Source: Acidobacteriota bacterium
GTDB lineage: Bacteria; Acidobacteriota; Thermoanaerobaculia; Multivoradales; Multivoraceae
Length of the DNA stretch: 64,000 bases
Reading direction: 5' to 3'
NCBI GenBank assembly: GCA_029263415.1
Contig: JAJCXN010000041.1
Coordinates: 267,338-331,337 of the forward strand
A program made the position numbers and the translations under genes. The notes beneath the pieces are model-generated. The model was not told the origin of the DNA. It ran no database searches and worked only from the letters and a program-made list of their open reading frames with translations. This document shows, piece after piece, positions 45,434 through 64,000 of this stretch. Within the stretch, counting starts at the first letter, position 1. Every line of letters begins with the position of its first letter.

Positions 45434-45789
45434 GCTCAGGCGCGAGCGGTGCAAGTCGCCGCTCGCGATCCGAACTGCAGCTTGAGGTCAACACGGGTCC
45501 TTGCTAATGAGGTCCTTACCTAAAGAGGACCGTGCTCGATGGCGCGCTTGAGGGGTGGTGAGCAGTGACTCTTCACTATCCGGAGTGACCAAGACCTGTT
45601 CCGTGGCGTGTCCAGGGGAGCCGCTTCAATAGCCTTTTGGAGCGTTCAGTCCGAGTAGGGTCGCCTTGGTGACAGGTGTAGTCCAGGACGACAAGTACCG
45701 AATGCGTCGTGTAAGCGTAAACTTTGCCACCGCACCACGGGACCTTCTCAGAAGGTCTTGGCACCCACCCAGCAACATGGCGGCCTCTC
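45434..45789. other. 356-base gap with a hairpin
   Basis: It begins with the hairpin listed separately. The remainder, up to the signal peptide of the S10 gene, contains overlapping open frames on both strands without a ribosome site. I see no credible gene or promoter motif. Confidence 0.4.
45441..45467 (+). terminator. 9-bp-stem hairpin after the haem/copper gene
   Basis: CGCGAGCGG (45441-45449) pairs with CCGCTCGCG (45459-45467) around a 9-base loop, starting 8 bases after the stop. No T-run follows, so it is a hairpin of the Rho-independent kind without its usual tail, or a 3'-end stabiliser. Confidence 0.5.
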
Positions 45790-47418
45790 ATGATCAACCA
45801 TCGGTCTTCCTCCGTCTCGGCGCCCTGCACCTCTCTTCGGTCGACGCGTTTGAGATCATCACTCGTTGCGATCGCATGTGGTCTCGTCGCGTTGCTCTCA
45901 TTGAGCGCCACACTCGGCGCTCAAGCCGAAGCCGACACCACCACAGAATCGGCCTCCTCTGCTAAGAAAGTAAACGCAGCGAAGGCGTCCAGGCCGATTC
46001 CGGCCCCGGTCTCGGTTGAGACGCAGCACAGTGGAACCTTCAACGGCGAACGGATTGCCTACCGAGCCTTGGTCGAAGACGTGCGTCTGAAAAGGGATGA
46101 TGGCAAGCCCTGGGTCAGCGTGTTCACCACCAGCTACCTGCGCGATGGTGATGGTAGATCGAGTGCGCGACCGGTGATGTTTGTATTCAACGGTGGCCCT
46201 GGATCGTCCTCGACCTGGTTGCACATGGGCGTGATCGGCCCGCGCCGGGTGGAAGTGCCCAGCGACGCTGGGCACCCAGGGCTCCCTCCTTATGCCATCA
46301 GCGACAACGTGTTCAGCCCGCTCGACGTTGCTGACCTCGTCTTTGTCGACCCTCCCGGCACCGGGTTCAGTCGACTGGTGGGGGACGGGAAGCCTGAGGA
46401 GGTCTACGGTCTCCGCGAGGACGCACGGACCGTCGCGTCGGTGGTGCGCGAGTGGGTGAGGGCGCATGGCCGTTGGAATTCTCCGATCTACCTCCTGGGC
46501 GAGAGCTTCGGAACCACTCGAGCGGCGGCGATGCTGCCAGAGCTTCAGCGAGGCTCCGAGCCGGTTGCTGTTGCTGGTGTCTTGTTGATCTCGCAGGCAA
46601 TGGACTACACCGGCAGTACTCCTTACGTCGACAACAACTACATCTCAACCGTGACCTACGTGCTCACCATGGCGGCCACTGCGTGGTACCACGGCAAGGT
46701 TGATCGCGCTGGTCGCACACTGGAGGCCTTTCTTGATGAGGTTCGTGCGTTCGCGATCGACGAGTACTTGCCAGCTTTGTTCCGAGGAAGCTCACTGGAC
46801 AAGGCCTCCGAGCAGGCAATAGCGGAGAAGCTCGCTGGCTATCTAGGCCTTGATGTGGGCTACGTTCTACGCTCTCGTCTGCGCGTCAACTCAAACCGCT
46901 TCGTCAAAGAACTCCTGCGAGATGAAGGACTTGCGGTGGGCAGGTTGGATGGCCGCTACACGGCAGATGAGATCGACGACATCTCCGAACGCCCATCGTT
47001 TGATGCTGCGTCGTCTGCGATTTCGACCGCCTTCAGCGTCGCCATTCACCAGCATCTGAGCGAGCAGCTGAAGGTGAAACTCGATCGCCCGTACCATGTC
47101 TCAGGCCCCGAGGTGTCGAAGAACTGGGTTTGGGATCGCACGCTGTCCAAGGGCGGTGAGCCCAACTACGTGAACACAGCCGGTGACCTCGCCGATGCGT
47201 TGAGCTACAACCCGACACTGCGTGTGCTGGTTGCCTCTGGCTACTACGACTACGCAACGCCATTCTTTGATGCGGAGTACACCCTCTACCGTCACGGGAT
47301 CGATATGGACCGAGTGACCATGACCTACTACGAGGCCGGCCACATGATGTACGTTCATGAACCTTCGCTCGCTGCGGTTGCAGATGACATTCGAACTTTC
47401 ATCACCAGCGCTCCATAG
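45790..47418 (+). CDS. S10 family serine carboxypeptidase
   Basis: 542 aa from the ATG at 45790; the frame opens at a TTG at 45724. A signal sequence lies at about 27-46 (LVAIACGLVALLSLSATLGAQA-E). The S10 motifs are VFNGGPGSSSTWLHMGVIGP, DPPGTGFSR, GESFGTT with nucleophile Ser239, SGYYDYATPF with Asp487 and EAGHMMY with His518. It removes C-terminal amino acids from peptides at acidic or neutral pH, outside the cytosol. It is the sixth peptidase in the window. The small gene after it starts 13 bases past its stop, so the two may be co-transcribed. Confidence 0.94.
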   Translation: MINHRSSSVSAPCTSLRSTRLRSSLVAIACGLVALLSLSATLGAQAEADTTTESASSAKKVNAAKASRPIPAPVSVETQHSGTFNGERIAYRALVEDVRLKRDDGKPWVSVFTTSYLRDGDGRSSARPVMFVFNGGPGSSSTWLHMGVIGPRRVEVPSDAGHPGLPPYAISDNVFSPLDVADLVFVDPPGTGFSRLVGDGKPEEVYGLREDARTVASVVREWVRAHGRWNSPIYLLGESFGTTRAAAMLPELQRGSEPVAVAGVLLISQAMDYTGSTPYVDNNYISTVTYVLTMAATAWYHGKVDRAGRTLEAFLDEVRAFAIDEYLPALFRGSSLDKASEQAIAEKLAGYLGLDVGYVLRSRLRVNSNRFVKELLRDEGLAVGRLDGRYTADEIDDISERPSFDAASSAISTAFSVAIHQHLSEQLKVKLDRPYHVSGPEVSKNWVWDRTLSKGGEPNYVNTAGDLADALSYNPTLRVLVASGYYDYATPFFDAEYTLYRHGIDMDRVTMTYYEAGHMMYVHEPSLAAVADDIRTFITSAP

Positions 47419-47431
47419 GGGACGCTCTGCT

Positions 47432-47902
47432 GTGACTGAAGAAGCGCACTCAAGCCCGAACGGATCTGCCAAAAGTATGGCTCAACGGTTGGCCGTGTGG
47501 TGTCTGCTCGGCCTTGCCGGTTGGACAACGGTCTATGTGGTGAGAGCGACTGTGGCAACGCAAGAAGTCCCTGCCGCGTCGCCCGACCTTCCACCATGGG
47601 CTTGGGAGCTCGGTGCTCCAGGTCCAGAACCGTTGCGTGCTCTGCTGCGTGAGGTGCGCGAAGTTTTGCCTCCAGACAGTCGTTTGATGCTTGATTCCTA
47701 CCGGTGGGGCGCCCCGGGGGACATTTTGATCCTGCTGGCTTGGGTTCGCTATGGATTGGTAGAGCAACGCGTCTCGGCACACATCGCACGACCGAAGTCG
47801 GAAGCGTTCTTGTTGGTCTACCCTGCGGGTCCGTCTCGTTTACAAGGTGCCACAGTGGTGCTCGATCATGAGCACGCGACTCTCTACTCGGTGGCGCCGT
47901 GA
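47432..47902 (+). CDS. small membrane-anchored protein of unknown function
   Basis: 156 aa from a GTG at 47432 with AGGGGA about 10 bases upstream; an ATG at 47477 is an alternative. One TM segment (about residues 20-38) precedes a periplasmic domain of about 115 aa. That domain has a conserved-looking SPDLPPWAWELG segment and the block LMLDSYRWGAPGDILILLAWVRYGLVEQRV. I do not recognise the family. Its stop overlaps the start of the next gene (GTGA), so it is coupled to the GT-C-like protein and may be an accessory subunit of it. Confidence 0.68.
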   Translation: MTEEAHSSPNGSAKSMAQRLAVWCLLGLAGWTTVYVVRATVATQEVPAASPDLPPWAWELGAPGPEPLRALLREVREVLPPDSRLMLDSYRWGAPGDILILLAWVRYGLVEQRVSAHIARPKSEAFLLVYPAGPSRLQGATVVLDHEHATLYSVAP

Positions 47903-49191
47903 AGCTTGTCGGGCTACTGATTTGGATCGCTCTTGCGGCACTTGTTGGTCTGCGCTTACCCCTTGGACGCGTGGGTCTCGGAGTTCGGGCGCTTGCGGGC
48001 GTCGTTGCGTTGCACTTCGCGTTGGTGGCGATGGACGCGCTGCGGGTTTCTTGGTCGCGAACCGCCCTCTTGATCCTGGCAGTGGGTGTCGCCTTTGGCG
48101 CTCGCAAAGCGCTAGCTGAAGGGCGCGATCACGTCACGGTTGCGCTTTCTGGGTTCGGTTGGGGGGATGCAGTGGCGTTGGTTTCGATTGCCTGTTTCGG
48201 ATGGGTCACCGTGACTCTGCAGGCAGTGCACTCCGATTTCGTTTACCACTGGGGTGTGAAGGGGCAACGCTTCGCGATGGCGCGAGGGATCGACTGGACC
48301 TTCCTCACGTTTCCCGAGGGTGCGATCTTTCATCCGGACTATCCTCATCTTGTGCCCAACGCTTATGCCGCGATCGCGGTCTTGAGCGGTGTCTGGAGTG
48401 AGCGCGCGATCCTCCTAACCAACGTGGCGTTGGTCGTGATCTTGTGGCTGGTGGTTCGTGAAGGCTTGGCTCGGCTCGGGGTGGAGGGCGTCGAGCATCA
48501 AGCTGGAGTGGCGAGCATCGTTGGGCTAGTTGCGGGGTTTGCCATCTACTACAACCAAGCGGGTGGCGCAGACTTACCCATGGCCATCAGTTTGACCGCC
48601 GCGGGTCTCATGCTGTGTGTGATCGATCGAGCCTCGAGCGAGTCCTCTCCAATGAGTGATTTTCTCGGGCTCGGATTTGTTCTGGCGTTCTTGGCGACCA
48701 GCAAACTCGAGGGACTCGTGGCTGCGGTTTGGCTAGGTCTTGTCTTTTTGCTTTTCATGCGTCGGCAGTGGCTTGCGAAACCTCTACGCTTGCTTGCGGT
48801 CGCGGGGCCTGCGGCCGCTGTTGTTGTACCTTGGTTTGTCGCCATGATGTCGTTGGGTCTACTGCGCGGTACCGGGAGCGCTCACGCGCTGCAAACGGAT
48901 CGTCTGACGACGGTGGCTGGTGCTGTATTCGAGGTGATGACGGCGAGCTATTGGCAAATGCTGCCACTGCTCTTGTTTACGTTGCCTGTGTTGCTGGTGA
49001 TTCGTCGCACTCGGATGCTGGCCTTAGTGGTGCTCGGGCCAATGGTGGTCTACGGTGTGACCTTCCTCACATCGGAGAATGATCCGGTGATGTACATCGC
49101 GATGACGGTGCCGCGCCTCTTGCTTCACTTTCTGCCCACCACTGTTGTTGCGATCGTCGTGGCCTTAGGACTCCGCGAGCGCGCATGCTGA
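47899..49191 (+). CDS. polytopic membrane protein, GT-C / ArnT-like glycosyltransferase candidate
   Basis: 430 aa with about 11 TM helices. The first periplasmic loop carries HSDFVYHWGVKGQRF (residues 111-125, Asp113) and HPDYPHLVPNAYA (from 145). An acidic residue after TM1-2 and an HPDYP loop are marks of lipid-linked-sugar glycosyltransferases of the GT-C fold. The overall length is short for ArnT, with little C-terminal soluble domain. Its GTG overlaps the stop of the small membrane protein, and its end overlaps the spermidine-synthase-like gene by 7 bases. The three form one translational unit. Possible role: envelope glycosylation; the sugar and acceptor are unknown. Confidence 0.68.
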   Translation: MKLVGLLIWIALAALVGLRLPLGRVGLGVRALAGVVALHFALVAMDALRVSWSRTALLILAVGVAFGARKALAEGRDHVTVALSGFGWGDAVALVSIACFGWVTVTLQAVHSDFVYHWGVKGQRFAMARGIDWTFLTFPEGAIFHPDYPHLVPNAYAAIAVLSGVWSERAILLTNVALVVILWLVVREGLARLGVEGVEHQAGVASIVGLVAGFAIYYNQAGGADLPMAISLTAAGLMLCVIDRASSESSPMSDFLGLGFVLAFLATSKLEGLVAAVWLGLVFLLFMRRQWLAKPLRLLAVAGPAAAVVVPWFVAMMSLGLLRGTGSAHALQTDRLTTVAGAVFEVMTASYWQMLPLLLFTLPVLLVIRRTRMLALVVLGPMVVYGVTFLTSENDPVMYIAMTVPRLLLHFLPTTVVAIVVALGLRERAC

Positions 49192-50081
49192 GACGGTCGG
49201 GCGGGGGCTGGCGAGCGCATGGAGCCATCGCGATTGCGATCGCCGCGTGCGCATGCACTGTGCAGGAGCAAGTGGTGTTTCAGGCCACGTCTCCATTCCA
49301 AGAGGTTGTGGTCACCGAGACTAGCGACCGAGTCCGAACACTTCGGTTCGGCGAGGGCGGTGCGGTGCAGAGTCAAGCACGGGTTGGTCGGCCCGATCAG
49401 TTGCTGGTGCCCTACGTGCGTGCTGCCATGGCGGGCCTGGTGTTTAGCCCGGAACCTGAGCGGGTATTGGTGGTCGGATTAGGTGGCGGCTCGATCCCAA
49501 ACTTCATCGCGCACAACTATCCATCGGCTCACGTTGACGCCGTGGAGATCGATCCGGTCGTGGTCGACGTCGCCCGTGACTGGTTTGGCGTTTCAGAGGG
49601 TGATCGCTTACGACTGGTCGTTGAAGACGGGCGACAGTTCGTCGAACGGGTGAGCGAACCCTACGACGTGATCTTTCTGGACGCCTTTGGAGAGTCCTCG
49701 ATTCCTCCCACCTTGACCAGTCGGGAGTTCCTCGAGGCCGTTCGACGTGCCGTTGGTACTGAAGGCGTGGTGATTGCCAACGTGTGGAGTGGTCCGCTGA
49801 ACCCGCTGTACGGCTCTATGGCAACCACCTACCAGACTGTCTTTGACGAGTTCTACTTGTTTGACGTCCCACGTCGAGCCAATCGGATATTCGCTCTCTT
49901 GCCACGCGCAGCGACACTTGAGCCAGCGGCACTTGCACAGCGACTCACCCAGTTGTCTCGTCGCTTGAGTGGCGATCTTGAACTCTCGAGCCTGGTGGAA
50001 AGGCGAGATGTGCGCGTCACCGATCGAGACTTTGGTGGCGAAGTTCTGTCTGACCTGCCATCAGGCCGCGACTTCAACTAG
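49185..50081 (+). CDS. spermidine-synthase-fold lipoprotein
   Basis: 298 aa. The first 22 residues (MLRRSGGGWRAHGAIAIAIAAC) form an n-region, hydrophobic core and lipobox IAAC, so this methyltransferase-like fold appears to be exported and lipidated. The aminopropyltransferase core is clear: VLVVGLGGGSIPNF (dcSAM/SAM binding), AVEIDPVVVDVA and LVVEDGRQFVE, then the substrate loop DAFGESSIPPTLTSREFLEAV. Spermidine synthases are normally cytosolic. Membrane-fused relatives place this domain next to TM helices, so an envelope role is plausible. It is the last gene of the overlapping unit with the GT-C-like protein. Whether it still binds a nucleoside cofactor outside the cytosol is open. Confidence 0.78.
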   Translation: MLRRSGGGWRAHGAIAIAIAACACTVQEQVVFQATSPFQEVVVTETSDRVRTLRFGEGGAVQSQARVGRPDQLLVPYVRAAMAGLVFSPEPERVLVVGLGGGSIPNFIAHNYPSAHVDAVEIDPVVVDVARDWFGVSEGDRLRLVVEDGRQFVERVSEPYDVIFLDAFGESSIPPTLTSREFLEAVRRAVGTEGVVIANVWSGPLNPLYGSMATTYQTVFDEFYLFDVPRRANRIFALLPRAATLEPAALAQRLTQLSRRLSGDLELSSLVERRDVRVTDRDFGGEVLSDLPSGRDFN

Positions 50082-50159
50082 CATCCCGTTGCTGGCGCAG
50101 ACTGTGTGCGCTTGACCCCATTTTCCCAACGTTGATCCCTTGCAGAAAGAGCGGTTTGC

Positions 50160-52688
50160 ATGAACTGGAAGCCTGGCGACCGCCTGACACACCGATACAA
50201 CCCTGAACTTGGACCCGGCATCATCAAGGATGTGGTGGACCGGTCTGTGGTGGTTCAGTTTCCGGAGAGCGGTACCGTCCTAAGACTGGCGGCAACCTCC
50301 GACGCGATTCAGCCGCTGGTGTGGCGTGCCGGTGACCGTGCACTCATGCTCGACACTGAAGAGTCGGTGGTTGTGGCTGAACAACTCGAAGATGGCACGG
50401 TCAAGTTGGACGATGATCGCGAAGTTGATCCTCGCGGCTTGTGGCCGGAGGACGTGGGCGAGTCTTTGTTTGATCGGCTGGCAGTGGGCAAGACCGATTC
50501 TCTTGGGTCGTTCGCCTTGCGCTTAGACAGTCTGCATTTGGCCGCGCTGCGCGAAGCAGACGGGCTGGGCTCGTTCTTGGGCGGTCGCATTCGCCTGTTC
50601 CCGCACCAGTTGTACGCAGCAGAGCGGGCCACGCAAACCAATCCAGTACGCTGGCTGCTGGCCGATGAGGTCGGCTTGGGAAAAACGGTCGAGGCCTTTT
50701 TGATTCTGAGTCATCTGCTGCGCACCGGGCGCGCCGAGCGCGTTCTGGTGGTGGCACCAGACACACTCACCGTGCAGTGGCTCGGCGAGTTGTGGCGCAA
50801 GATTCATCAAGTGTTCGTGCTGTTGGATGAGAAGCGCCTGCAGGATGTAGAGACCGACTTTGGCTCTGGATTTAACCCATTCGAGGCATATCAGCGAGTG
50901 GTGGTGAGCACGGAGCTTCTGGTCGAGCGCCCCGATCTCACTCGGCTTGCAGTGGAGGCGGGCATCGACGTCTTGATTGTCGATGAAGCGCATCATCTGC
51001 GTCGTCCTCCCGGTCATCCGGGCAATGCTGAATATCGAGCCGTTGAGCCGATTGCGGCCCTTGGGCTGCACACCTTGCTCTTGTCAGCCACTCCGCTCGA
51101 AGAAGATGCGCATGGGTTCTTCCGGCTATTGCAGTTGCTGCGGCCAGAAGAGTTCCCCGAGCAGGACTCGTTCGAAGAGCGCCTCACCAGTGGCACGCCG
51201 CTGCCGGCGTGCACCAGTTCCGCTCGCCGTGCTGACATTGGCGGATTGCCGCCGCGCCAGCTCAGCCGAGTGGATCTGCTGGCTGACGACTGGGCCCCGG
51301 TGGCGGCGGTCGAGGCGGCCATGCGTGCGCTACCAGCTACCAACGCGTTGCAGGAGAAGACGAAGTTGCGCAGGATTCGTCGTGCGCTGTGCTCGGGTGC
51401 TGCTCTCGCGGCAGTGCTCAAGCCGAGCGACAAGAAGAATCGCGAACTCGCTACCGCTGCCTCGGAGGCAGACCCGCGCGTAGCCTGGTTGGCTGAACAG
51501 GCTCCTGTCTGGCGCAGCAACGGAGACAAGACCTTGGTTTTCGTTGCGCACCGAGAGTCTCTTGATTTGATCCGCAACGAGATGAAGCGGTCGGCCCGTA
51601 TGCGTGCCGGAGTTTTTCACGAGGACCTTTCGGTGGGCCAGCGCGACATCGAAGTAGCTCAGTTCCGTATCGACGAGGGACCGTCGATGTTGATCTCAAC
51701 CGAGTGCGGTGGCGAGGGACGCAACTTCGAGTTCTGTACTCGCATGGTCTTGTTCGACCTGCCGTGGAATCCCAACTTGGTTGAGCAGCGCATTGGTCGA
51801 TTGGATCGCATTGGTCGTTCTATCCCGGTCGAGATCGTGATGTTCCGGCCGCCTAATGGACTTGGTGCAGCGATCGCTGACCTTTATGAGTCGCTCGGTC
51901 TGTTCCGCGAACCTCTGGGTGGACTCGAGCTGGAACTGAAGCGCGCTCAAGCGGCGATCGAAGAGTTGGCGCTGAGTGATGCGGAGGAGGATGCTGCGGT
52001 GGCTTTTGCGCCGGTCATCGAGACTGCGCGAGAAGCGCGTCATCGAATCAACGATGCTGCCTACCACGAGCTTCATCGAGAGCCTTTCAAAGCCGAGATG
52101 GGAGAGGCGATTCTCGCTCGCATTCCCGAAGACCTCGAGAGCGAGATGGAATCAGTGATCGTTGCTGCATGTGAACAGTTCGGCTTGAAGCTAGAGGCTC
52201 ATCGCGGCGTTGCTCGGTACTCGGTTAAGTTCGGAAGTCGCGCTCGAATCGACGCGCTGCCGGGTGTACCGGATGGAGCGAACTACCTGGGGTCCTTCAG
52301 CCGTGAAGAGGCCGTCGAGAGTGAGAACATCGACTTCTACTCTTCGGGCCACCCACTGATTGAGGGCCTCTTGGCTCATCTTGAAGATAGCGAGCGCGGT
52401 CGCGTTGGCTTGCTAGATGCCAGCGCCGGACCCGATGGCGGCAGGGGTTTTGGAGTGCTCGCGATCTACAAAGACGGACCTCAGTTTGAAGCCGTTGCTT
52501 TCGACTTGAAGGGAAGGGAGCGTCCCGAATGGGCCGAGCACCTTACTCAGGGATCCCTTCGCAGCAAACCTGTGAAACGGGAGCAATGGGTCGAGGCCGC
52601 CGGGTGGCCGGAGATGATCGCCAAGATGGCGGAACTGTTCAGGGATCGTGGTCGACCAGTAGCAGTCGCGGCGTTTCGTCTAACTTAG
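50160..52688 (+). CDS. RapA-like SNF2 family ATPase
   Basis: 842 aa. The N-terminal Tudor-like module opens MNWKPGDRLTHRYNPELGPGIIKDV. The SNF2 core has Walker A in LADEVGLGKTVE (about 168-179), DEAH in IVDEAHHLRR (about 274), LLSATP, and motif VI-type NLVEQRIGRLDRIGR in the second RecA lobe. RapA/HepA binds RNA polymerase and recycles it after termination. This gene is about 125 residues shorter than E. coli RapA and differs in the C-terminal part, so RapA-like is the safe name. It is monocistronic: 78 bases after the previous stop and followed by an isolated small transcription unit. Confidence 0.87.
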   Translation: MNWKPGDRLTHRYNPELGPGIIKDVVDRSVVVQFPESGTVLRLAATSDAIQPLVWRAGDRALMLDTEESVVVAEQLEDGTVKLDDDREVDPRGLWPEDVGESLFDRLAVGKTDSLGSFALRLDSLHLAALREADGLGSFLGGRIRLFPHQLYAAERATQTNPVRWLLADEVGLGKTVEAFLILSHLLRTGRAERVLVVAPDTLTVQWLGELWRKIHQVFVLLDEKRLQDVETDFGSGFNPFEAYQRVVVSTELLVERPDLTRLAVEAGIDVLIVDEAHHLRRPPGHPGNAEYRAVEPIAALGLHTLLLSATPLEEDAHGFFRLLQLLRPEEFPEQDSFEERLTSGTPLPACTSSARRADIGGLPPRQLSRVDLLADDWAPVAAVEAAMRALPATNALQEKTKLRRIRRALCSGAALAAVLKPSDKKNRELATAASEADPRVAWLAEQAPVWRSNGDKTLVFVAHRESLDLIRNEMKRSARMRAGVFHEDLSVGQRDIEVAQFRIDEGPSMLISTECGGEGRNFEFCTRMVLFDLPWNPNLVEQRIGRLDRIGRSIPVEIVMFRPPNGLGAAIADLYESLGLFREPLGGLELELKRAQAAIEELALSDAEEDAAVAFAPVIETAREARHRINDAAYHELHREPFKAEMGEAILARIPEDLESEMESVIVAACEQFGLKLEAHRGVARYSVKFGSRARIDALPGVPDGANYLGSFSREEAVESENIDFYSSGHPLIEGLLAHLEDSERGRVGLLDASAGPDGGRGFGVLAIYKDGPQFEAVAFDLKGRERPEWAEHLTQGSLRSKPVKREQWVEAAGWPEMIAKMAELFRDRGRPVAVAAFRLT

Positions 52689-52739
52689 GACAGCGCTTCG
52701 AGTGGGCGTTTGCGCTTCTATCGGGTGCGAGGTCTGCGC

Positions 52740-52768
52740 TTGACAAGTCTCAACATAGTTCCTATGGT
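52740..52768 (+). promoter_or_regulatory. near-consensus sigma-70 promoter
   Basis: TTGACA at 52740-52745 is a perfect -35 box. After exactly 17 bases, TATGGT at 52763-52768 gives a -10 box with four of six consensus bases. It is the best promoter match in the window. The predicted start, about 52775, lies 3 bases before an ATG. Confidence 0.65.
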
Positions 52769-52777
52769 TTGCGCGTT

Positions 52778-52951
52778 ATGACGGAGCCCATCTCAAACAC
52801 CGCGCGTCCGGTCGCGACTCGTCTGTCGACCGAAGACCGTTTCTCTGCACGAAAGTGTAAGCGGAGCTCGAGACGCCGTGCGCGTTCTGAGAAGTCCTTC
52901 GCGAACTTAGCGCAGTTGTGCAGCCGTCAAGGCGATCACTTTTCCAGCTAG
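52778..52951 (+). CDS. small basic protein or small RNA, function unknown
   Basis: A 57-codon ORF starts 3 bases after the predicted transcription start, so it would be leaderless. The peptide is Arg/Ser/Lys-rich in the middle (RKCKRSSRRRARSEKS, residues about 25-40) with two Cys. The same transcript ends at a strong terminator at 52984-53016, giving an RNA of about 240 nt. A short basic protein or a structured small RNA are both possible. I recognise neither. A short open frame in a GC-rich genome can arise by chance. Confidence 0.4.
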   Translation: MTEPISNTARPVATRLSTEDRFSARKCKRSSRRRARSEKSFANLAQLCSRQGDHFSS

Positions 52952-52983
52952 CGCCTCTCAAGTTCAACGACAAACCCTCTCAG

Positions 52984-53016
52984 ACCCGCAACGGCTTACC
53001 GCCGATTGCGGGTTTT
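52984..53016 (+). terminator. Rho-independent terminator
   Basis: ACCCGCAA (52984-52991) pairs with TTGCGGGT (53006-53013). An inner CGG/CCG pair extends the stem, and TTTCTAG follows. It ends the short unit that starts at the promoter at 52740. It is the only hairpin in the window with a clear T-tail. Confidence 0.8.
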
Positions 53017-53079
53017 CTAGTTTGAATACCGTGCATCGGCGAACAGCCTCGGGTCGAGTTTCCCAAAGGACTCGATCAC

Positions 53080-54345
53080 ATGTTCACGACTGCCGATCTC
53101 GACCGCTCTCGCAATAGTGCCGTTTGCCTGAATCCACGTTCGGGGAATGGCGCGTCTTGGGCGTCGTACGATCACGCGTGGTGCCGCAGAACGCTTGCGG
53201 ATCTTTGTGCCGTCGACAGCACCACGGGCCGCGAAGCTCACCTATCGTCGCGGCTGTTGCGAGAACTAACGCGGCTTGAACCGGACTCGCTGTGCGAACT
53301 GCCAGTGGTTGGTGAGCGCTGCAATCTGTTGGCGACTTGGGGCACACCGCGTCTCTTGTTGTCGACGCACTTGGACGTGGTTCCGGCTGCTGGATGGAAA
53401 GGGGCGTTCACGCCGAGTGTCGATGCTCAGGAGTTGACGGCAAGAGGAGCCTGTGATGCCAAGGGGCAGATCGTGGCTCAACTTGCTGCTATCCGCCGGT
53501 TGATTCGGTTGGGTCTCACGGACTTCGCTTGGCTTGGTGTGGTTGATGAGGAGCGTGACAGTCTGGGAGCTCGTTCTGTGGCCTCGAACCCACCTGCGGT
53601 GCTGAGTGAGGTGGAGGTCGTGATCAATGGTGAACCCACTGGCAATGTCATCGCGAGCGCTCAACAAGGGTTTGAGCGTTGGAGTCTCGAGTGCACCTCC
53701 GAGGTTCGCCACGGCGCGTGCACCGAAAAGCGCGCCGCTGGTGCGGTATCTCAACTGATCGGTTGGCTGCATCGCTTCGAGAGTGCCGGTCAGCAGCAGG
53801 CCGCCCATCATTCGTTCTTTGGCCTTGAGAGCTACAACATCAGCGGCTTGAGCGCTGGTGAGGCGCACAACATTGTTGCCCCGGTGGCTAGATCGGAAGT
53901 CACACTTCGTACAGTCCCAGCTTGCGCTACCACCGACGGAGAGATGCTCGGCGAGAAGTCCCCGGTGGGGCTGGTGGCAGCCTTGGAACAGGCCAGACCC
54001 GCTGGGGCGCACCTCGAACTGCAGCATCGCAGCGCACCGCTTGCGCTCTCGGGCTGGTCAGATCTAGTTGCGGCTCCAGTGGCCTTCGGTTCAGACGCTG
54101 TGCATCTGATTCAGTTGAGTCGACAAGGATTGGTGGTGATGGTCGGTCCTGGTTCGATTGGCAGTGCTCACACTGATCGTGAATCGATCCAATGGACGGC
54201 GTTCGCATCTGGTGTCGATGTGTTGGAGGCGCTGTCGCGTCGCGTGCTGGCGGGCGAACTGCCTTCGCGGTTGCCCGGCGTTCCTCGCGAAGTGAGTGGT
54301 GGGTCGTCCAGGCTCAACAGTCGCAGATTCGGTGCCCGACGATGA
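53080..54345 (+). CDS. dapE: M20 family deacylase, probable succinyl-diaminopimelate desuccinylase
   Basis: 421 aa; AAAGGA precedes the ATG at 53080. It has the M20 metal ligands: STHLDVVP (His97, Asp99), GACDAKGQ (Asp126), VVDEERDS (Glu157/158) and a late GSAHTDRE (His364). The dimerisation domain is present. The first 30 residues are an extension not usual in the family, and the GACDAKG loop has Cys before Asp where most have Asp or Ala/Asp-Met. The gene overlaps dapB (ATGA) and is followed by dapA and dapD, so removal of succinate from N-succinyl-LL-DAP is the natural reading. ArgE-like activity cannot be excluded from sequence alone. Confidence 0.85.
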   Translation: MFTTADLDRSRNSAVCLNPRSGNGASWASYDHAWCRRTLADLCAVDSTTGREAHLSSRLLRELTRLEPDSLCELPVVGERCNLLATWGTPRLLLSTHLDVVPAAGWKGAFTPSVDAQELTARGACDAKGQIVAQLAAIRRLIRLGLTDFAWLGVVDEERDSLGARSVASNPPAVLSEVEVVINGEPTGNVIASAQQGFERWSLECTSEVRHGACTEKRAAGAVSQLIGWLHRFESAGQQQAAHHSFFGLESYNISGLSAGEAHNIVAPVARSEVTLRTVPACATTDGEMLGEKSPVGLVAALEQARPAGAHLELQHRSAPLALSGWSDLVAAPVAFGSDAVHLIQLSRQGLVVMVGPGSIGSAHTDRESIQWTAFASGVDVLEALSRRVLAGELPSRLPGVPREVSGGSSRLNSRRFGARR

Positions 54346-55034
54346 GCGGTGCTGTGTTGCGTGTTGGCATTTTCGGTCGCGGTCGGCTGGGCAGCACCCT
54401 TGCGGAGCATGTCGGGCGGGATCCGTCGACGGAACTCGGCTTCTACGCTGATCGTCGATGCGTTCTCGATCAGCTTGAGCAGGTTGATGTCGCGATCGAC
54501 GCATCGCTGGGAGAGGCGGTGCCGGTGCACGTGGATTGGGCTCTTGCGACGTCGACACCGTTGGTCATCGGGTCGACCGGTTGGTCGAACGAAACGCTGG
54601 CCCGCGATGTGGGCCGGAGGATCGGAGTGATGTTGGCTCCCAACGGCTCGCTTTTGGTTGCGCTGTTTGAACAGTTCGCCGCAGAGTTAGGGAGATTCGT
54701 AGGCGCCGATAGCGATACGGCTGGGTTCCTCGTCGAGCACCATCACGCTGCTAAGCAAGACGCTCCTTCCGGTACCGCGCTGCGTCTGGGACTGGCCTTC
54801 AAAAGCGGAGCCGGCACCTGCTCGGCCGATCTGCCGATTCAGTCGGTGCGCGCTGGGAGTGAGCTTGGGCTTCATCGGTTGGGCGTCGATCTGACCAACG
54901 AGACGCTTGAGATCACCCACCGAGTCCGCGACCGATCGGTGTTCGCAGTAGGCCTCTTGACCGGCGCGCGCTGGTTGGCTCAACCCAACAGAACCGGCCT
55001 GTTCACTCTGGCCGATGTGACGTCCGGCCGCTGA
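54342..55034 (+). CDS. dapB: 4-hydroxy-tetrahydrodipicolinate reductase
   Basis: 230 aa from the ATG overlapping the dapE stop; the frame is open upstream inside dapE only as a shadow. The NAD(P)-binding motif VGIFGRGRLG is at residues 8-17. The signature EHHHAAKQDAPSGTA begins at Glu132, with His133-135 and Lys138 for substrate binding and proton transfer. The protein is shorter than E. coli DapB (273 aa) by about 40 residues, mainly in the N-domain. It reduces the DapA product to tetrahydrodipicolinate in lysine and peptidoglycan precursor synthesis. It is cytosolic and the second gene of the dap operon. Confidence 0.94.
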   Translation: MSGAVLRVGIFGRGRLGSTLAEHVGRDPSTELGFYADRRCVLDQLEQVDVAIDASLGEAVPVHVDWALATSTPLVIGSTGWSNETLARDVGRRIGVMLAPNGSLLVALFEQFAAELGRFVGADSDTAGFLVEHHHAAKQDAPSGTALRLGLAFKSGAGTCSADLPIQSVRAGSELGLHRLGVDLTNETLEITHRVRDRSVFAVGLLTGARWLAQPNRTGLFTLADVTSGR

Positions 55035-55110
55035 TGAGGTTCTCCCTTTTGCCTGGAAGTTCCGTTTCCGACTCACTTCTCATTTCAACTGGCCTTGGAG
55101 GCTTAGTCCG

Positions 55111-56028
55111 ATGATCCCTGAACACCGCGAATCTTTGCTTGTTCAACCCCCGAGCGGCACTTGGGTCGCCCTGCCGACTCCCTTTGATCGAACCGGAGCC
55201 GTGGACCTCTTCGCGCTCAGGAGTGTGGCGAAGCGTTGTGTCGACTGCGGCGTTGACGGGCTGGTTCCACTGGGTACCACCGGTGAGGCGGTGACCCTTA
55301 CCGAATCCGAGCGCGCCGAGGTGGTCGAGGCGTGTGTGGATGTGGCTGGTGATCTGCCAGTGGTGGTGGGAACTGGCTCGAATGCCACACAAACGGCGGT
55401 GCGTTGGACAAAGCAAGCTCGGGCTCTGGGTGCCGACGGAGCGCTTGTGGTGACGCCCTATTACAGCCGACCGAATCGATCGGGGCTTCATGGTCACTAT
55501 GCTGAGATTCAAGAGCGATGTCCTGAGGTTCCTCTGGTCATCTACAACGTTCCGTCGCGAACGGGACTCGATATGGGGGCAGAACTCATGCTCGAGTTGT
55601 TGGAGTTGCCTTCAGTCGTTGCGGTGAAGGAGTCGAGCGGTCGTCTGGATCAGATGGGAGAACTCGCCCGTTGTGCTCCCGAAGGGACCAGCATCTTGGC
55701 TGGAGACGACGGGCTTGCGGTGCCTTCGATTGCTCTTGGAGCCCGTGGTCTGGTTTCGGTAGCGGCGAATGTCAGACCGATTGAGGTGGCCTGCATGGTG
55801 AATGCGGCTCTCAACGTCGAGGGTCCCCGGGCGCTCGAGCTGCATCGGGGACTCGAGCCGTTGGTGCGCGCGCTGTTCCTTGAGACGAATCCGGTACCGC
55901 TCAAAGCGGCGTTGGCGTTGCTGGGCTTGACCGAGAATGTTGTTCGTCTACCACTTTGGCAAGCCTCGAACGAAACTACGGAAGAGCTAGCGATGGTTCT
56001 CGGTCCGCTGGTTCGGGTGGCCTCCTGA
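55111..56028 (+). CDS. dapA: 4-hydroxy-tetrahydrodipicolinate synthase
   Basis: 305 aa; GGAGG lies 9 bases before the ATG at 55111. The (beta/alpha)8 aldolase carries GTTGEAVTL (55-63, pyruvate carboxylate site), YYSRPN, VIYNVPSRTG with Tyr145 and VAVKESSG with the Schiff-base Lys173. It condenses pyruvate and aspartate semialdehyde, the first committed step to DAP and lysine. The 76-base gap from dapB is the largest in the operon; I see no promoter or riboswitch in it. Its stop overlaps the dapD start (TGATG). Confidence 0.95.
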   Translation: MIPEHRESLLVQPPSGTWVALPTPFDRTGAVDLFALRSVAKRCVDCGVDGLVPLGTTGEAVTLTESERAEVVEACVDVAGDLPVVVGTGSNATQTAVRWTKQARALGADGALVVTPYYSRPNRSGLHGHYAEIQERCPEVPLVIYNVPSRTGLDMGAELMLELLELPSVVAVKESSGRLDQMGELARCAPEGTSILAGDDGLAVPSIALGARGLVSVAANVRPIEVACMVNAALNVEGPRALELHRGLEPLVRALFLETNPVPLKAALALLGLTENVVRLPLWQASNETTEELAMVLGPLVRVAS

Positions 56029-56846
56029 TGTCATCGATTCAACACTTGCAGGGGTTCTACAGCCGTCCGGATGATGAGGTGCTGGCCGATCCGCAGTTTG
56101 TTCGGACCCACGCACTACTGTTGGCGGCGCTCGAGGACGGGAGTGTGCGTGCTGCAGTTTGCATTGATGGAGTTTGGCGTGCGGAGGCTTGGGTCAAGCG
56201 TGCAATTCTGTTCGGCTTCCGCAATGCGGAGACTGTCGAAATGCCGAACGGGACAAGTGTTGCTTTCGATCGGAGTACCTATCCGCCTCGCACGTTTCTT
56301 GTGGAGGATCGGGTGCGTTTGGTGCCGGGTGGTTCGGCAGTCCGGCGAGGCGCGCATGTTGCTCCAGGGGTGGTCATCATGCCGCCGTCCTACGTCAATG
56401 TCGGTGCCTATGTTGGCGACGGTTGCATGGTGGACAGTCAAGCACTAGTCGGTTCCTGTGCTCAGATCGGTCGCAACGTTCATCTATCCACCGGCGTCAA
56501 GATTGGTGGCGTTCTGGAACCTATCGGCGCAGCGCCGGTGGTGGTCGAGGATGAATGCTTCATGGGTGCACAAAGCGGTGCCTTCGAGGGTGTTGTGGTT
56601 AGACGCGGTTCGGTGATCGCCCCCGGTGTGTTGCTCACTGCTGCGAGCAGAATCTACGATCTGGTGCGAGATGAGATCGTGCAAGGAGAGGTGCCCGAAC
56701 GGTCCGTGGTGGTGCCTGGATCGCGAGCGCTGAGCGGTCCGTTTGCGACGGAACACGGTCTCTCCGCCTACGCACCACTGATCGTCAAGATCCGAAACCA
56801 TTCAACAGATGCGGCAACGGAGCTGGAGCAAGCACTCAGGTGCTGA
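56028..56846 (+). CDS. dapD: tetrahydrodipicolinate N-succinyltransferase
   Basis: 272 aa from the ATG overlapping the dapA stop. The N-terminal helical part (1-95) has WVKRAILFGFR. The left-handed beta-helix (about 98-220) is shown by hexapeptide repeats such as GAHVAPGVVIMPPSYVNVGA and GSCAQIGRNVHLSTGVKIGG, then DECFMGAQSGAFEGVVVRRG. The C-terminal sheet follows. It transfers succinyl from succinyl-CoA to tetrahydrodipicolinate, so the pathway here is the succinylase branch, in agreement with dapE in the same operon. It is the last gene of the unit; the next gene is convergent after 231 bases with no gene between. Confidence 0.94.
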   Translation: MSSIQHLQGFYSRPDDEVLADPQFVRTHALLLAALEDGSVRAAVCIDGVWRAEAWVKRAILFGFRNAETVEMPNGTSVAFDRSTYPPRTFLVEDRVRLVPGGSAVRRGAHVAPGVVIMPPSYVNVGAYVGDGCMVDSQALVGSCAQIGRNVHLSTGVKIGGVLEPIGAAPVVVEDECFMGAQSGAFEGVVVRRGSVIAPGVLLTAASRIYDLVRDEIVQGEVPERSVVVPGSRALSGPFATEHGLSAYAPLIVKIRNHSTDAATELEQALRC

Positions 56847-57077
56847 TTTGGAACCACAACTCATGACCGGGGACCGAAGTTCAGTTTCGAGGGCGGTATT
56901 CGCAGTTTCGGCGAGCATCTCAGCCGAGCGAAGACGTCGCTGCACCAGCCGCCGATCTATTTGCCCGCGGCTTGCATACGAAGATCGCGCGAAATGGCCG
57001 AGTGAGTTCGGAACTCTCATCAGCACGGTGACGGTCGGTTGGAGGCCCAGATGAAGCTGCAGAGGTCGCAGTGTGAG

Positions 57078-59492
57078 CTAGTTAGCGAGCACCGCGGCGA
57101 CCGCAGCCGTCAACTCCTTTCCGGTCCAAGGCTTTTGAACGAAGCGTGCAACAGGTAGGCCTCGGCATCGCTCCTTCATCTCCTGGGGTGAGTGTCCACT
57201 AATGATGAGGACCGGCGTGGCGGGGTTCAGTTCCTGGATCTCGACAAGCACCTTTTCGCCAGCCATGTCGGGCAAGGTTAAGTCGGTCAAGACGGCAGCG
57301 AAGGATTGATCAGCTCGGAATATCTCTACACCCTGCTCGCCGGTGACAGCGTGCTCTACCTTGTACCCAGCTTTGGTCAAGAGGAGTCTGCACGCTAGGC
57401 CCACCGCCGGGTCATCTTCAACCAGCAGCAGCCGATCCTTACTAACTCGAACCTTCTGGGGGTCCTTTGCAGATTGGCGAGAATGCGGCGATCGTGCGAC
57501 GGAGTCGAACATGGGAAGTACTACTTCAATCGTGGTCCCATGGCCCGGCTCGCTGCAGACCGAAATGCCTCCTTCATGTCCTTTGACAATCCCGATCACC
57601 GCGGCCAGACCTAGGCCACGCCCGACGAACTTGGTGGTGAAGAAGGGATCGAAGATCTTGTCGATCGTGTCCTGAGTCATTCCGAGGCCTTGATCAGAAA
57701 CCCGAAGCGCCGCGTAGCGACCACTGTCCTGTACGGAGCCGAACCGAATGGCTTTGATTTGCTCGCTGGAGAGATCCTCGACCGACGTGGAGACCGTGAT
57801 CTGACCGCCCCTACTTCCTTGCGCCTCGACCGCGTTCTGAATCAGATTCAAGGCAACTTGGTTGATCTGACTCAAGTCGCCAGCCAATGTGACTGGCAGC
57901 ATGGACCAGTCGGTGACGACTTCGTACGGAGCCGCTTGGGGAAAGTCCAGCAGAGTGAGAGTGCGGTCAGCGATCTCGGTTAGGTCAAGGGTGACGATCT
58001 GCTTGTTGCCGCCCCCAGCGAAGGCCGACATCTGACGTGTCAGGCCGCTCGCGTCGACTGCCGCGTTGGCAATGCAGTCGAGGTTCTTGCGCACCGGTGA
58101 GCCCTCGGGCAACGAGAAAGCCGCCAGCTCACTGTGCCCCAGGATGCCTTGCAGCAGGTTGTTGAATTGGTGAGCGAGGCCGCCGGCCATTAGACCAAGG
58201 CTCTCGAGCTTTTGAGCATGTCGGATGGCCAACTCGGCCTGGTGTTGCGCGGTCACGTCCTCCACGACTGCCAGGACAGACTCCATTGCTCCACTAGGGT
58301 CGACCTCTGGTGTGAAGTGGCCGCGGATCCGAGCTTCCGTGCCGAAGCGGGTGATCCAATGTCCGCTACCAACGAAGGGTTTGCCCGTTTCCAAGACGCG
58401 TTGCAGTACTTTCCATAGCTCAGTCTCGCTGAGTGGCGAACCGACAAGGTCGAGTCCGATCATGTCCTGTGGGGAACTGGCGCCGAAGATCTCCTGCGCT
58501 TTCTCATTTGCGGCGGTGATCGTTGAATCCAATGAGATTCGCACCATACCGATTGGCGCGTTCTCGAACAGCTCTCGATAGCGCTTCTCCGAGTGGCGCA
58601 GTACGACTTCAGCTTGCTGGCGAAGACGCCGGTCGAGTACCAACGCGGCCATGTGGGCAACGAGTTCCGCGAGCTCAACGTCCTCTTGTTGCCAGCGCCG
58701 TACTTGGCTGGTCATCTCGTGAGTGATCGCGCCATACACCTGGCCCTCGATGGTGATGGGCACGGCCAGCATCGACCTCGCCTTCTGCGACTCGAGGTAC
58801 AAGCCCTTGAGTTGTTCGGCAATTGAGTCGGCAGAGGTGTCCTCAACCTGTAGTACCTCGCCTGCGAGTAGAACCTCGAAGTGCCTAGGCGAATCTGAAG
58901 CCCTCAGGCGAGGGCCTGATGGCTGGCTGGCAGCGCCGTCCTCGAACAAGCAACGGCGGGCGAGTGTCAATCGATCGTTTGAGAAGGTCCAGACACTGAC
59001 TCGATTCACCTTGATGAGGGTAGCGGCGATCTGCGCAACTAGTCGGAGTGCTTGCGACAGATCATCCGAATCGGCCGATAGGTGCCGGCCCGGCTCCGCC
59101 ATCCTCCCCATCGGTTCTAGGACGGCAGCGACTTCTCGCAGTCTCAGTAGTACCAGGTTGGCTGGCTCGACCGGGATCGACAATGGCGTGGCGCGCAGTT
59201 GATAGGTGCGCTGCTGGCTAATCGCCACAAATACCTTCGCATGGCCGTCTGCCCTTTTGCACAGCGCCGTGACGCCGTCTCCTTGAAGGCCCGTTGATGC
59301 AGTTTCTTGACGAAGGTGGAGGTCGAGTTCACCGATGTCGGCCCCCTGGACGAACAACTCCTCGTCGAAGAAAGTTCTGACTTGTTGGTTTGCGTAGAGC
59401 ACCGCTGACGTGGCGTCGAGCAGGATCAGTCCGTCAGGATCAGTCTCAGCGATCGCCTGGAAGGCTGTGCCGATGGCAGATTGCACGTCCAA
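57078..59492 (-). CDS. hybrid sensor histidine kinase / response regulator
   Basis: 804 aa from a TTG at 59492; AAGGAG is 8 bases upstream and no ATG lies earlier in frame. Order: a PAS-like domain (about 10-115), a GAF domain (about 145-290), a second PAS (about 305-415), the dimerisation/phosphoacceptor helix with LAHQFNNLLQG (His near 441), an HATPase domain (TKFVGRGLGLAAVIGIVKGHEGG) and a C-terminal receiver (LLLVEDDPAVG, VLTDLTLPDM with Asp near 736, KPW). There are no TM helices, so it is a soluble cytosolic sensor. No separate response regulator is adjacent, so the output must be elsewhere. It is divergent from the Gfo/Idh gene. Confidence 0.93.
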   Translation of the reverse strand: MDVQSAIGTAFQAIAETDPDGLILLDATSAVLYANQQVRTFFDEELFVQGADIGELDLHLRQETASTGLQGDGVTALCKRADGHAKVFVAISQQRTYQLRATPLSIPVEPANLVLLRLREVAAVLEPMGRMAEPGRHLSADSDDLSQALRLVAQIAATLIKVNRVSVWTFSNDRLTLARRCLFEDGAASQPSGPRLRASDSPRHFEVLLAGEVLQVEDTSADSIAEQLKGLYLESQKARSMLAVPITIEGQVYGAITHEMTSQVRRWQQEDVELAELVAHMAALVLDRRLRQQAEVVLRHSEKRYRELFENAPIGMVRISLDSTITAANEKAQEIFGASSPQDMIGLDLVGSPLSETELWKVLQRVLETGKPFVGSGHWITRFGTEARIRGHFTPEVDPSGAMESVLAVVEDVTAQHQAELAIRHAQKLESLGLMAGGLAHQFNNLLQGILGHSELAAFSLPEGSPVRKNLDCIANAAVDASGLTRQMSAFAGGGNKQIVTLDLTEIADRTLTLLDFPQAAPYEVVTDWSMLPVTLAGDLSQINQVALNLIQNAVEAQGSRGGQITVSTSVEDLSSEQIKAIRFGSVQDSGRYAALRVSDQGLGMTQDTIDKIFDPFFTTKFVGRGLGLAAVIGIVKGHEGGISVCSEPGHGTTIEVVLPMFDSVARSPHSRQSAKDPQKVRVSKDRLLLVEDDPAVGLACRLLLTKAGYKVEHAVTGEQGVEIFRADQSFAAVLTDLTLPDMAGEKVLVEIQELNPATPVLIISGHSPQEMKERCRGLPVARFVQKPWTGKELTAAVAAVLAN

Positions 59493-59767
59493 CGGGGCGA
59501 CTCCTTGCTACATCATCAGGTGGCTGGCAGGAAGATGGTACTCCACTGTCTCAGACTTTGAGAATTGGTTGTTGCAGAGGGTAGCCAGATGCGAAGCTAA
59601 AAGAGAGCGTACCTACCTCCTACTCAAGTAGCACCTTGAAAGTTTCCGAATTGATGTCCAAGTGTTCAGGTTCAATTCTTCTGAAGATCGGTCAGCCACG
59701 GCTTGAATTCAATCACACGACCGAATTCGCATAGGCTCAGGGCCCCTGCTGTCTACTAGGAACCCAT

Positions 59768-61144
59768 ATGGCGACGCTACACCACATGTCGAGGCGGTCC
59801 ATCCTCAGCGGACTCGGAGCCGCCATCGGCACAATGACGCTTGGTTCGCACCGCGCGGTCAGAGCTCGGAGTGGAGCACTTTTCCTTGAGCCCTCACAAG
59901 AGAAGCGGAAGCCTTCGCGGACGATCACTGCGATCACTTTGGGCGCCGGCAATCGAGGCAACGTATACGGCGACTATGCCGCGGCCTACCCTGACGAGCT
60001 GAACATAGTCGGCGCTGCCGAGCCGATCGAGATCAGGCGACAAAGGTACTCGACGCTGCACTCCATTGCGCCCGGCAACCTGTTCACCACCTGGGAGCAC
60101 GTGTTCGAGCGACCCAAGTTTGCTGACGCCATCATCATCACCACACCCGATGATCTGCACTATGGACCCTGCATGGCGGCACTGGAAATGGGGTACGACG
60201 TCTTGTTGGAGAAGCCGATCTCTCCTTCAGAACAGGAGTGTCGAGAGATCTTGGCCAAGGTTGAAGAGACCGGTCGGATTGTTGCTGTGTGCCACGTTCT
60301 TCGCTACGCGCCGTATTTTCAGAAGTTGAAGGCGATCGCGGCCTCCGGTGTGTTGGGGAAGGTGGTGAGCATGCAGCACTTCGAACCGATCCAGCACCTA
60401 CACATGTCGCACTCGTATGTTCGCGGTAACTGGCACAACTCGAAGGAAACCACTCCCATCCTCTTGGGCAAGTCCTGCCACGACTTGGACATCATCCGGT
60501 GGATCATGGATCAAAGTTGCCGGCGCATCCATGCGTTTGGCGGGCTCGACTGGTTCCATTCTGGCAACGCTCCTGAAGGCAGCACCGCACGGTGCATGGA
60601 TGGCTGCGCGATCGAGGGGAGTTGCACTTATTCGGCGCTCAAGCTGTATCACCGCAGCAGGAACTACACCTATGTGTTTGATCTGCCAGAGGATGAGGCC
60701 GAGCACGGCCCGGCCATCCTCGAGTATTTACGCACCACCAACTACGGACGGTGCGTCTATCGCATGGAGAACGATCAGCCGGATCACTACACGGTCAACA
60801 TGGAGTTCGCAGACGGCGCCACTACCAGTTTCAACATGGAGGCCTTCACCAGCTACCACGGACGACGCACACGAATCATGGGAAGCGAGGGCGACATCGT
60901 CGGTGACATGACCGAGTTCGTACACACTGACTTTGGCTCTGGCGAAGAAACCAAGTGGCGCAGCGAATCCGACGGCCATGGTGGCGGCGACTGGCGGCTG
61001 CTGTCAGATTGGATCCGGGCCATTGATGCGCAAGATCGATCACTTCTGGTGAGTACCATCCAGGAAAGTGTCGAGAGCCACGTGATGGGCTACCGCGCCG
61101 AAAAGAGCAGGCTCAACGGTACCGTCGAAGCGGTCGCCCTTTAG
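59768..61144 (+). CDS. Tat-exported Gfo/Idh/MocA family oxidoreductase
   Basis: 458 aa; AGGAA lies 7 bases before the ATG at 59768. A twin-arginine signal (MSRRSILSGLGAAIGTMTLG, from residue 7) precedes the domain, so it is folded with its cofactor in the cytosol before export. The Rossmann part has ITLGAGNRGNVYG (GAGNRG 59-64), TTPDDLHYGP and EKPIS (148-152), the usual motif with catalytic Lys. The C-domain has KSCHDLDIIRWIM. A Cys cluster (CMDGCAIEGSC) near 280 is typical of the glycoside-linked subset. The likely substrate is a sugar or glycoside. It is divergent from the histidine kinase and followed by a hairpin. Confidence 0.9.
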   Translation: MATLHHMSRRSILSGLGAAIGTMTLGSHRAVRARSGALFLEPSQEKRKPSRTITAITLGAGNRGNVYGDYAAAYPDELNIVGAAEPIEIRRQRYSTLHSIAPGNLFTTWEHVFERPKFADAIIITTPDDLHYGPCMAALEMGYDVLLEKPISPSEQECREILAKVEETGRIVAVCHVLRYAPYFQKLKAIAASGVLGKVVSMQHFEPIQHLHMSHSYVRGNWHNSKETTPILLGKSCHDLDIIRWIMDQSCRRIHAFGGLDWFHSGNAPEGSTARCMDGCAIEGSCTYSALKLYHRSRNYTYVFDLPEDEAEHGPAILEYLRTTNYGRCVYRMENDQPDHYTVNMEFADGATTSFNMEAFTSYHGRRTRIMGSEGDIVGDMTEFVHTDFGSGEETKWRSESDGHGGGDWRLLSDWIRAIDAQDRSLLVSTIQESVESHVMGYRAEKSRLNGTVEAVAL

Positions 61145-61165
61145 GCAACGCCCAGCGTTGTACTC

Positions 61166-61197
61166 TCGCCCACGTTTCGCGAATGCAACGTGGGCGA
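61166..61197 (+). terminator. 11-bp-stem hairpin after the Gfo/Idh gene
   Basis: TCGCCCACGTT (61166-61176) and AACGTGGGCGA (61187-61197) are perfect complements with a 10-base loop, 22 bases past the stop. TGAGCC follows instead of a T-run. It may end this transcript from the left and, read from the right, that of the convergent sulfatase gene. Confidence 0.6.
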
Positions 61198-61305
61198 TGA
61201 GCCGACCGGTTGCCCAGTTGGATGATCACCCAGTCGAGCGAAGGCCCAGTTGGTCGATAGCGCAATCCGGTTGATCGAGCCATCGGTCGATTGAGCGGAC
61301 TACTA

Positions 61306-61329
61306 CACTACTGCACTACTGCACTACTG
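61306..61329. repeat. 8-bp tandem repeat x3 over the sulfatase stop codon
   Basis: Three perfect CACTACTG units (61306-61329), with partial copies on both sides. The minus-strand sulfatase stop (complement of 61324-61326) lies in the third unit. Read in the gene direction the repeat supplies several further stop codons. Confidence 0.85.
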
Positions 61330-63738: not shown

Positions 63739-63947
63739 GGTAAGGACCTCGTAAAGAAATGAGCTGGGAAGGATCGGTGCGCTGATTCTACTCGTCAAGA
63801 GCTCGCGCAACAGGCTGGAACTCCTATCCAAACGGCCGCCGTACATCTGGAGCTATCGCTGGAAGTTCGCTGAAGAGTCCCGCTGCGCTCGTATCGTCGC
63901 TCGTTGGGTGGTACATAGGCGTCGACGCGAAGGCGCACAAGGCCTTA

Positions 63948-63998: not shown

Positions 63999-64000
63999 AT

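Follow-up and report, generated by a model that had tools for sequence, protein, structure and literature searches.

Ribosome-mediated attenuation of an aspartate-family operon is known from thrL-thrA of Escherichia coli, where a leader ORF with codons for the pathway products threonine and isoleucine is coupled to a switch between antiterminator and terminator. Translation of thrL starts from a Shine-Dalgarno site. A leaderless leader peptide has been described for the tryptophan attenuator trpL of the alphaproteobacterium Sinorhizobium meliloti (rnTrpL/peTrpL), where termination releases a small RNA and which acts also in trans, according to PMC10117765. The same source presents SEP5, a candidate leader peptide of S. 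meliloti with six Thr and three Lys codons in front of an aspartate dehydrogenase gene; its passages on SEP5 mention no antiterminator. In other bacteria, lysine genes such as lysC are controlled by the lysine riboswitch or L-box, as outlined in PMC1262725 and PMC2659441. Leader peptides are known to take the place of T-boxes, and in 2010 almost none of the attenuators in Acidobacteria had associated functions, according to the relevant parts of PMC2965389. In the open-access literature, a scope outside which most subscription papers lie, we found no description of a lysine-specific leader-peptide attenuator.

The window analysed here comprises 64,000 nucleotides of an Acidobacteriota genome of 6.9 Mb (GCA_029263415.1, contig JAJCXN010000041.1, positions 267,338 to 331,337). 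Its segment 52740-53018 is probably the promoter and 5' leader of a dap operon, acting as a lysine-specific, ribosome-mediated attenuator with a leaderless leader peptide (Table 1). What is read from the sequence is the architecture of the segment, its homology with two other leaders, the position of the Lys codons, the complementarity between leader and terminator and the compensatory changes in the terminator; transcription start, stalling, coupling and the response to lysine are the parts that we infer. With thrL-thrA the locus shares a leader ORF with pathway-product codons, a predicted antiterminator/terminator switch and an aspartate-family operon as target, but the control codons would be Lys instead of Thr and Ile. 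The leaderless leader peptide and the small terminated RNA would be common to this locus and trpL of S. meliloti, and Lys codons in a proposed leader peptide to this locus and SEP5, which differs by its mixed Thr and Lys codons and its origin from another phylum. The mechanism would be that of classical leader-peptide attenuators, and leaderless leader peptides are already known.

RNA polymerase would start at about 52775, and the leaderless AUG would receive ribosomes directly. Under a shortage of charged Lys-tRNA, a ribosome would wait at AAG-UGU-AAG, and GCCGUGCG, situated just past its footprint, could pair with the emerging 5' arm of the terminator. Through this pairing the terminator would be prevented and dapE-dapB-dapA-dapD transcribed. 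With plentiful lysine, the ribosome would advance over GCCGUGCG, the terminator would form and transcription would end after about 240 nt.

Table 1. Features of the putative attenuator and of the dap operon following it (positions in the window).
Feature	Position	Strand	Basis
Promoter of sigma-70 type, TTGACA-17-TATGGT	52740..52768	+	Promoter scan, sequence distances
Putative leaderless leader-peptide ORF, 57 codons, MTEPISNTARPVATRLSTEDRFSARKCKRSSRRRARSEKSFANLAQLCSRQGDHFSS	52778..52951	+	ORF list; peptide similarity among three leaders
Conserved 35-nt block, codons RKCKR...RAR, in frame with the G057 and G036 leaders	52850..52884	+	Leader alignments
Candidate control codons AAG-TGT-AAG (Lys-Cys-Lys)	52853..52861	+	Leader comparison, ribosome-position folding scans
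Putative antiterminator strand GCCGTGCG, complementary to terminator 5' arm (CGC-n-ACGGC)	52875..52882	+	Duplex search, folding scans
Intrinsic terminator (putative attenuator), hairpin 52984-53013 and U tract	52984..53018	+	Hairpin folding; relatives' terminators
Shine-Dalgarno-like AAAGGA, separated by 9 nt from the ATG of dapE	53065..53070	+	Sequence inspection
dapE-like M20 peptidase (ArgE/DapE family), leading the operon presumed to be controlled	53080..54345	+	Profile/homology searches
dapB, overlapping dapE	54342..55034	+	Profile/homology searches
dapA	55111..56028	+	Profile/homology searches
dapD (tetrahydrodipicolinate N-succinyltransferase)	56028..56846	+	Profile/homology searches

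The preliminary description of this DNA had pointed to a perfect -35 box (52740-52745), a 17-nt spacer and a fair -10 box (52763-52768), and the promoter indeed matches the consensus at 10 of 12 positions. It was the only sigma-70-like site found by the promoter scanner in 45001-64000; shuffling of this sequence gave a mean of 3.7 such sites with the same scanner, so that the promoter alone is not above chance. The leader as a whole is above chance because it is conserved, a related leader preceding the same kind of operon in two relatives. Also borne out was the near-leaderless, Arg-rich ORF, which starts nine bases behind the -10 hexamer (ATG at 52778) and ends with TAG (52949-52951), with no other evident gene inside the unit. 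Since its frame is open over 153 codons, the openness alone says little. Profile searches found no protein family for the 57-aa peptide, and a plain protein search of 60 genomes with it gave matches at chance level only (best E value outside its own genome 0.005).

Between the leader ORF and the first gene lies an intrinsic terminator, a bulged, GC-rich hairpin (ACCCGCAACGGC-uuacc-GCCG-a-UUGCGGGU, followed by UUUCU) of -20.3 kcal/mol. A simple terminator scanner had no entry for it, presumably because of the bulge. It had been put forward as the only T-tailed terminator in the window, which is nearly right: it is a strong one and ranks third in energy of 224 candidates collected from both strands under a loose definition, surpassed only by a palindrome at 18257-18297, counted once per strand, whose T tails are poorer. 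This palindrome is long and nearly perfect, reaches -27.9 kcal/mol as minus-strand RNA, has weak T tails on both strands and is possibly a two-way terminator.

Leader and dapE are co-directional; the U tract and dapE are about 60 nt apart, and the ribosome-binding site follows the terminator after about 50 nt. As far as the letters alone can tell, a promoter thus stands before a short ORF and this before the first structural gene, and the order of promoter, short ORF, terminator, ribosome-binding site and biosynthetic operon is the arrangement of an attenuator and not of an isolated unit. The dap operon of the window lacks lysC; an aspartokinase match was found on another contig of the same genome, and no leader was recognisable by eye at this gene.

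A dapD match was detected in 7 of 60 genomes, and the leader motif RK[CS]KR...RAR in three of these seven. G057 and G036, two genomes from another family of the same order, exhibit the gene order lysC-dapE-dapB-dapA-dapD and upstream of lysC a TTGACA promoter, a near-leaderless in-frame ORF with RK[CS]KRKAxGRAR and a terminator, whose hairpin is followed by lysC after 52 nt (G057) and 58 nt (G036). The distance from the -35 start to the ATG is 38 nt in the window, 37 nt in G057 and 38 nt in G036. The genes upstream of the leaders differ, with a rapA-like gene in the window and PQQ/esterase-like and TMEM175-like genes in G057 and G036. The preliminary description had made its unit depend on the conservation of promoter, ORF and terminator in relatives; all three are conserved in these two genomes, as part of a dap operon.

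The three leaders have a gapless block of 35 bases in common (RKCKRSSRRRAR, RKCKRKAHGRAR, RKSKRKATGRAR), which is conserved at the RNA level, some synonymous sites included. In local alignments of the intergenic DNA, shuffled sequences scored as well in 2 of 2000 cases for window and G036 (score 32), in 50 of 2000 for window and G057 (score 25) and in none of 2000 for G057 and G036 (score 59); the reverse-complement controls scored 23, 20 and 26. The similarity of the leader peptides was not reached by any of 2000 shuffles in each of the three pairs. Furthermore, the terminators share ACCCGCnACGG...GCGGGU with compensatory changes. Pair 7 is A-U in the window, U-A in G057 and G-C in G036, and the innermost pair is C-G in the window and U-A in both relatives; these changes were read from the folded hairpins and carry no count by a tool, the tool alignment having misplaced the hairpin loop. 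Homologous leaders number three in all, and those of G057 and G036 are much closer to each other.

Lysine accounts for 3 of 57 residues in the leader peptide of the window, 3 of 53 in G057 and 3 of 28 in G036, and for 1.5% of the residues of six neighbouring genes. The codons are clustered, as AAG-n-AAG in the window and as three AAG within five codons in G057 and G036, a cluster that is weak beside that of E. coli thrL. In the window one of the three Lys codons sits 3' of the antiterminator element, Arg is commoner than Lys, and the ORF continues for about 20 codons beyond the conserved motif.

GCCGTGCG is invariant and in all three leaders begins 16 nt behind the first base of the second AAG. 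When the 5' arm of the terminator is paired with the whole upstream leader, the best duplex in each case involves this homologous GCCGTGCG. The duplex amounts to -12.9 kcal/mol in the window, -15.2 in G057 and -16.9 in G036, and as 141, 82 and 74 of 1000 shuffles, respectively, were as good, it is weak taken singly. An initial candidate for the antiterminator strand, 52912-52920, was dropped in favour of this best duplex. The A of ACGG is invariant, unpaired in the terminators of G057 and G036 and a partner of the U in GCCGU, and is explained most easily by the alternative pairing.

For the folding scans the leader was folded with the 5' arm just emerged and a ribosome footprint on each codon in turn. 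With the upstream RNA free, G057 showed 7.1-9.6 pairs between element and arm while the A site was within CGA-AAG-TGC-AAG-CGC and no more than 3.9 at other codons; in G036 the count was 6.1-9.5 within TCG-AAG-CGC and did not exceed 0.6 at other codons. For the window leader the value was 8.8-8.9 at all positions up to CGG (nucleotide 85), 0 from 97 to 118 and 8.9 again, with dips, from nucleotide 130, or 0 to the end if following ribosomes cover the leader. Accordingly, when the second AAG occupies the A site, the pairing is at its maximum in G057 and G036 and on a plateau in the window, and it falls afterwards. When any upstream partner of the arm was counted, the second AAG gave 10.6 (G057) and 10.7 (G036), compared to at most 8.7 and 8.4 elsewhere off the lysine codons; in the window 9.9 fell to 4.3-7.7. 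By this count the contrasts are smaller in all three leaders than with the element-only count. Of 300 shuffled leaders each, 3 for the window and none for G057 and for G036 matched the observed values of both the pairing at this second AAG and the subsequent drop, this codon and the codon range having been picked after earlier scans had been seen. Singly, the pairing was reached by 11 and the drop by 7 of 300 shuffles of the window leader. E. coli thrL (NC_000913), the positive control, exhibited a similar scan profile, and none of its 300 shuffled leaders reached both values. By folding, G057 and G036 thus show a clear ribosome-position-dependent antiterminator, and the window copy a weaker one.

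A protector (1:2) hairpin is usual in leader-peptide attenuators, though not strictly required. Such a hairpin, GGCCnnnGGCC, is present in G057 and G036 and absent from the window copy, for which pairing of element and arm, and hence read-through, is predicted as the default state: with no ribosome present the value is already at the plateau, and in G057 and G036 it is low. Repression would thus be leakier than in G057 and G036, or the copy may be decaying. The window copy is the weakest of the three and may be a looser or decaying version.

It is unlikely, in our view, that the segment attenuates the dap operon in response to another signal than stalling for Lys-tRNA, be it arginine, the general translation rate, a metabolite acting on a riboswitch or a protein. 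Such a signal would suit the window copy, whose antiterminator is predicted to arise even in the absence of a ribosome, as well as the conservation of the block in the RNA including synonymous sites. It would also suit the invariant Arg residues that accompany Lys in the peptide motif; these codons following the lysines, however, coincide with the antiterminator strand and are explained by its base pairing. The frame is kept although the distance from the ATG to the first AAG is 75 nt in the window, 105 nt in G057 and 30 nt in G036, the antiterminator peaks at AAG codons in the latter two, and the searches for an Rfam riboswitch or T-box were negative, all of which argues against such another signal.

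It is also unlikely that the conserved peptide does more than count Lys codons, in that the nascent chain RK[CS]KRKAxGRAR arrests the ribosome in a lysine-dependent manner, or that the terminated 240-nt leader and the peptide act in trans like rnTrpL/peTrpL. If so, this would be a new type of lysine-sensing leader peptide that replaces feedback control in these operons.

In the two relatives, the aspartokinases at the head of the dap operons (G057:C196, L069:4559-5719, minus; G036:C107, L070:4294-5286, minus) match the Pfam domain AA_kinase only, and TIGR00657 merely over its positions 5-287 (G057) and 5-286 (G036) of 442. The ACT regulatory part appears to be absent, so that these enzymes may lack ACT-mediated feedback by lysine.

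The attenuator reading also competes with that of the preliminary description, which had seen a stand-alone unit. A small RNA or small-protein gene with its own terminator, dapE being transcribed from another promoter, is improbable. The promoter, ORF and terminator do make up a complete unit of about 240 nt, and a leader ended at this terminator would in any case amount to a small RNA of that kind. Both related copies, however, precede a lysC-dapE-dapB-dapA-dapD operon, the promoter scanner found no second promoter-like site between 53018 and 53080, and a plain DNA search gave no second match in the own genome; most likely, the unit is the 5' leader of the dap operon. That ORF and promoter arose by chance in the gap and the terminator merely ends the rapA-like transcript is highly improbable, for although the rapA-like stop (52688) lies only 52 nt 5' of the -35 box, the open frame is little informative and the peptide has neither a family nor an above-chance relative in the plain search, terminator, ORF block and promoter recur jointly in two genomes where the preceding genes are unrelated, the terminators differ by compensatory changes and the peptide similarity goes beyond 2000 shuffles.

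The gene upstream of the leader (50160-52688, same strand) encodes a RapA-like SNF2 helicase with a RapA_C domain. A tie of the unit to this gene, suggested earlier, was not upheld in the relatives. Among 18 relatives' loci with rapA-like matches, some of them the same gene twice, the 450 nt downstream contained no TTGAC[AG], CCCGCnACGG or peptide motif; at least 450 nt of downstream sequence were available in 14 loci, 219 nt in one and none in 3. In tblastn searches none of the 18 loci had a match to dapE, dapB, dapA, dapD or lysC, and a conserved link between leader and rapA-like gene was rejected on these loci. The helicase also scores for the DpdE and DISARM DrmD models, below their cut-offs, and has matches in 13 of 60 genomes including its own (E<=1e-60).

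No Rfam covariance model matched the unit at E<=10, neither a T-box nor any other known leader, and a riboswitch, T-box or other known RNA was rejected on this ground. The lysine riboswitch (RF00168), which has the same kind of target, was found neither at the unit nor in any of 148 genomes of the class including the own one, in a search whose strict filters may lose weak matches and which was positive in 4 of 14 control genomes. An identity with 6S RNA was rejected, too, as the only 6S match of the genome is on another contig and none is at the unit. A plain DNA search of 60 genomes with the unit returned only the unit itself, and a plasmid search gave no match.

Allowing up to 3 mismatches, a pattern of the conserved block matched in 4 of 72 genomes of the order and 5 of 148 of the class, three of these being the source loci (0 mismatches by construction) and the two others having 3 mismatches; the backwards control of the class search gave 4 matches. 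With at most 2 mismatches, 396 genomes of the phylum without G057 yielded the own locus, G036 and one match with 2 mismatches, compared to 17 for the backwards control. The three extra matches sit in long open frames, with no TTGAC[AG] in the 250 bases upstream and no GC run followed by T's downstream.

G024 has dap genes, with no such leader and no strong terminator close upstream of dapE, and in G042 the sequence upstream of dapE offers no more than a hairpin whose T tail is poor. Five loci of G024, G042, G048 and G027 lack the peptide motif. In a scan of 30 lysC-like loci for the motif and a TTT-tailed hairpin, the motif occurred only in G057 and G036; TTT-tailed hairpins were found at other lysC-like loci, too, such as those of G058, G100 and G027.

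If the lysine-specific attenuator is real, codon-counting attenuation can replace the lysine riboswitch, much like the known replacement of T-boxes by leader peptides, and an attenuator of Acidobacteria would gain an associated function. Its leaderless start would moreover offer a convenient test case for the coupling of leaderless ORFs to transcription.

Two further leaders, in G100 and G058 of the same class, resemble those described here in having a TTGACA or TTGACG promoter and a terminator just before an aspartokinase gene (37 nt in G100 and 39 nt in G058 from the -35 start to the ATG), but contain Thr codons. In G100 (G100:C151, L101, minus) a short near-leaderless ORF, MNIDITTHHPRRALVAATATTRPDG, with several Thr codons is followed by a GC-rich, T-tailed terminator; the ribosome scan does not fit this leader and is weak for G058. 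The latter (G058:C390, L097, minus) carries the near-leaderless, Thr-rich leader MSSHSQSGNACSMSTTTTTHRASGGTGIA (TTTTT) and a strong T-tailed terminator before an aspartokinase that is fused to homoserine kinase, and is likely a thr attenuator.
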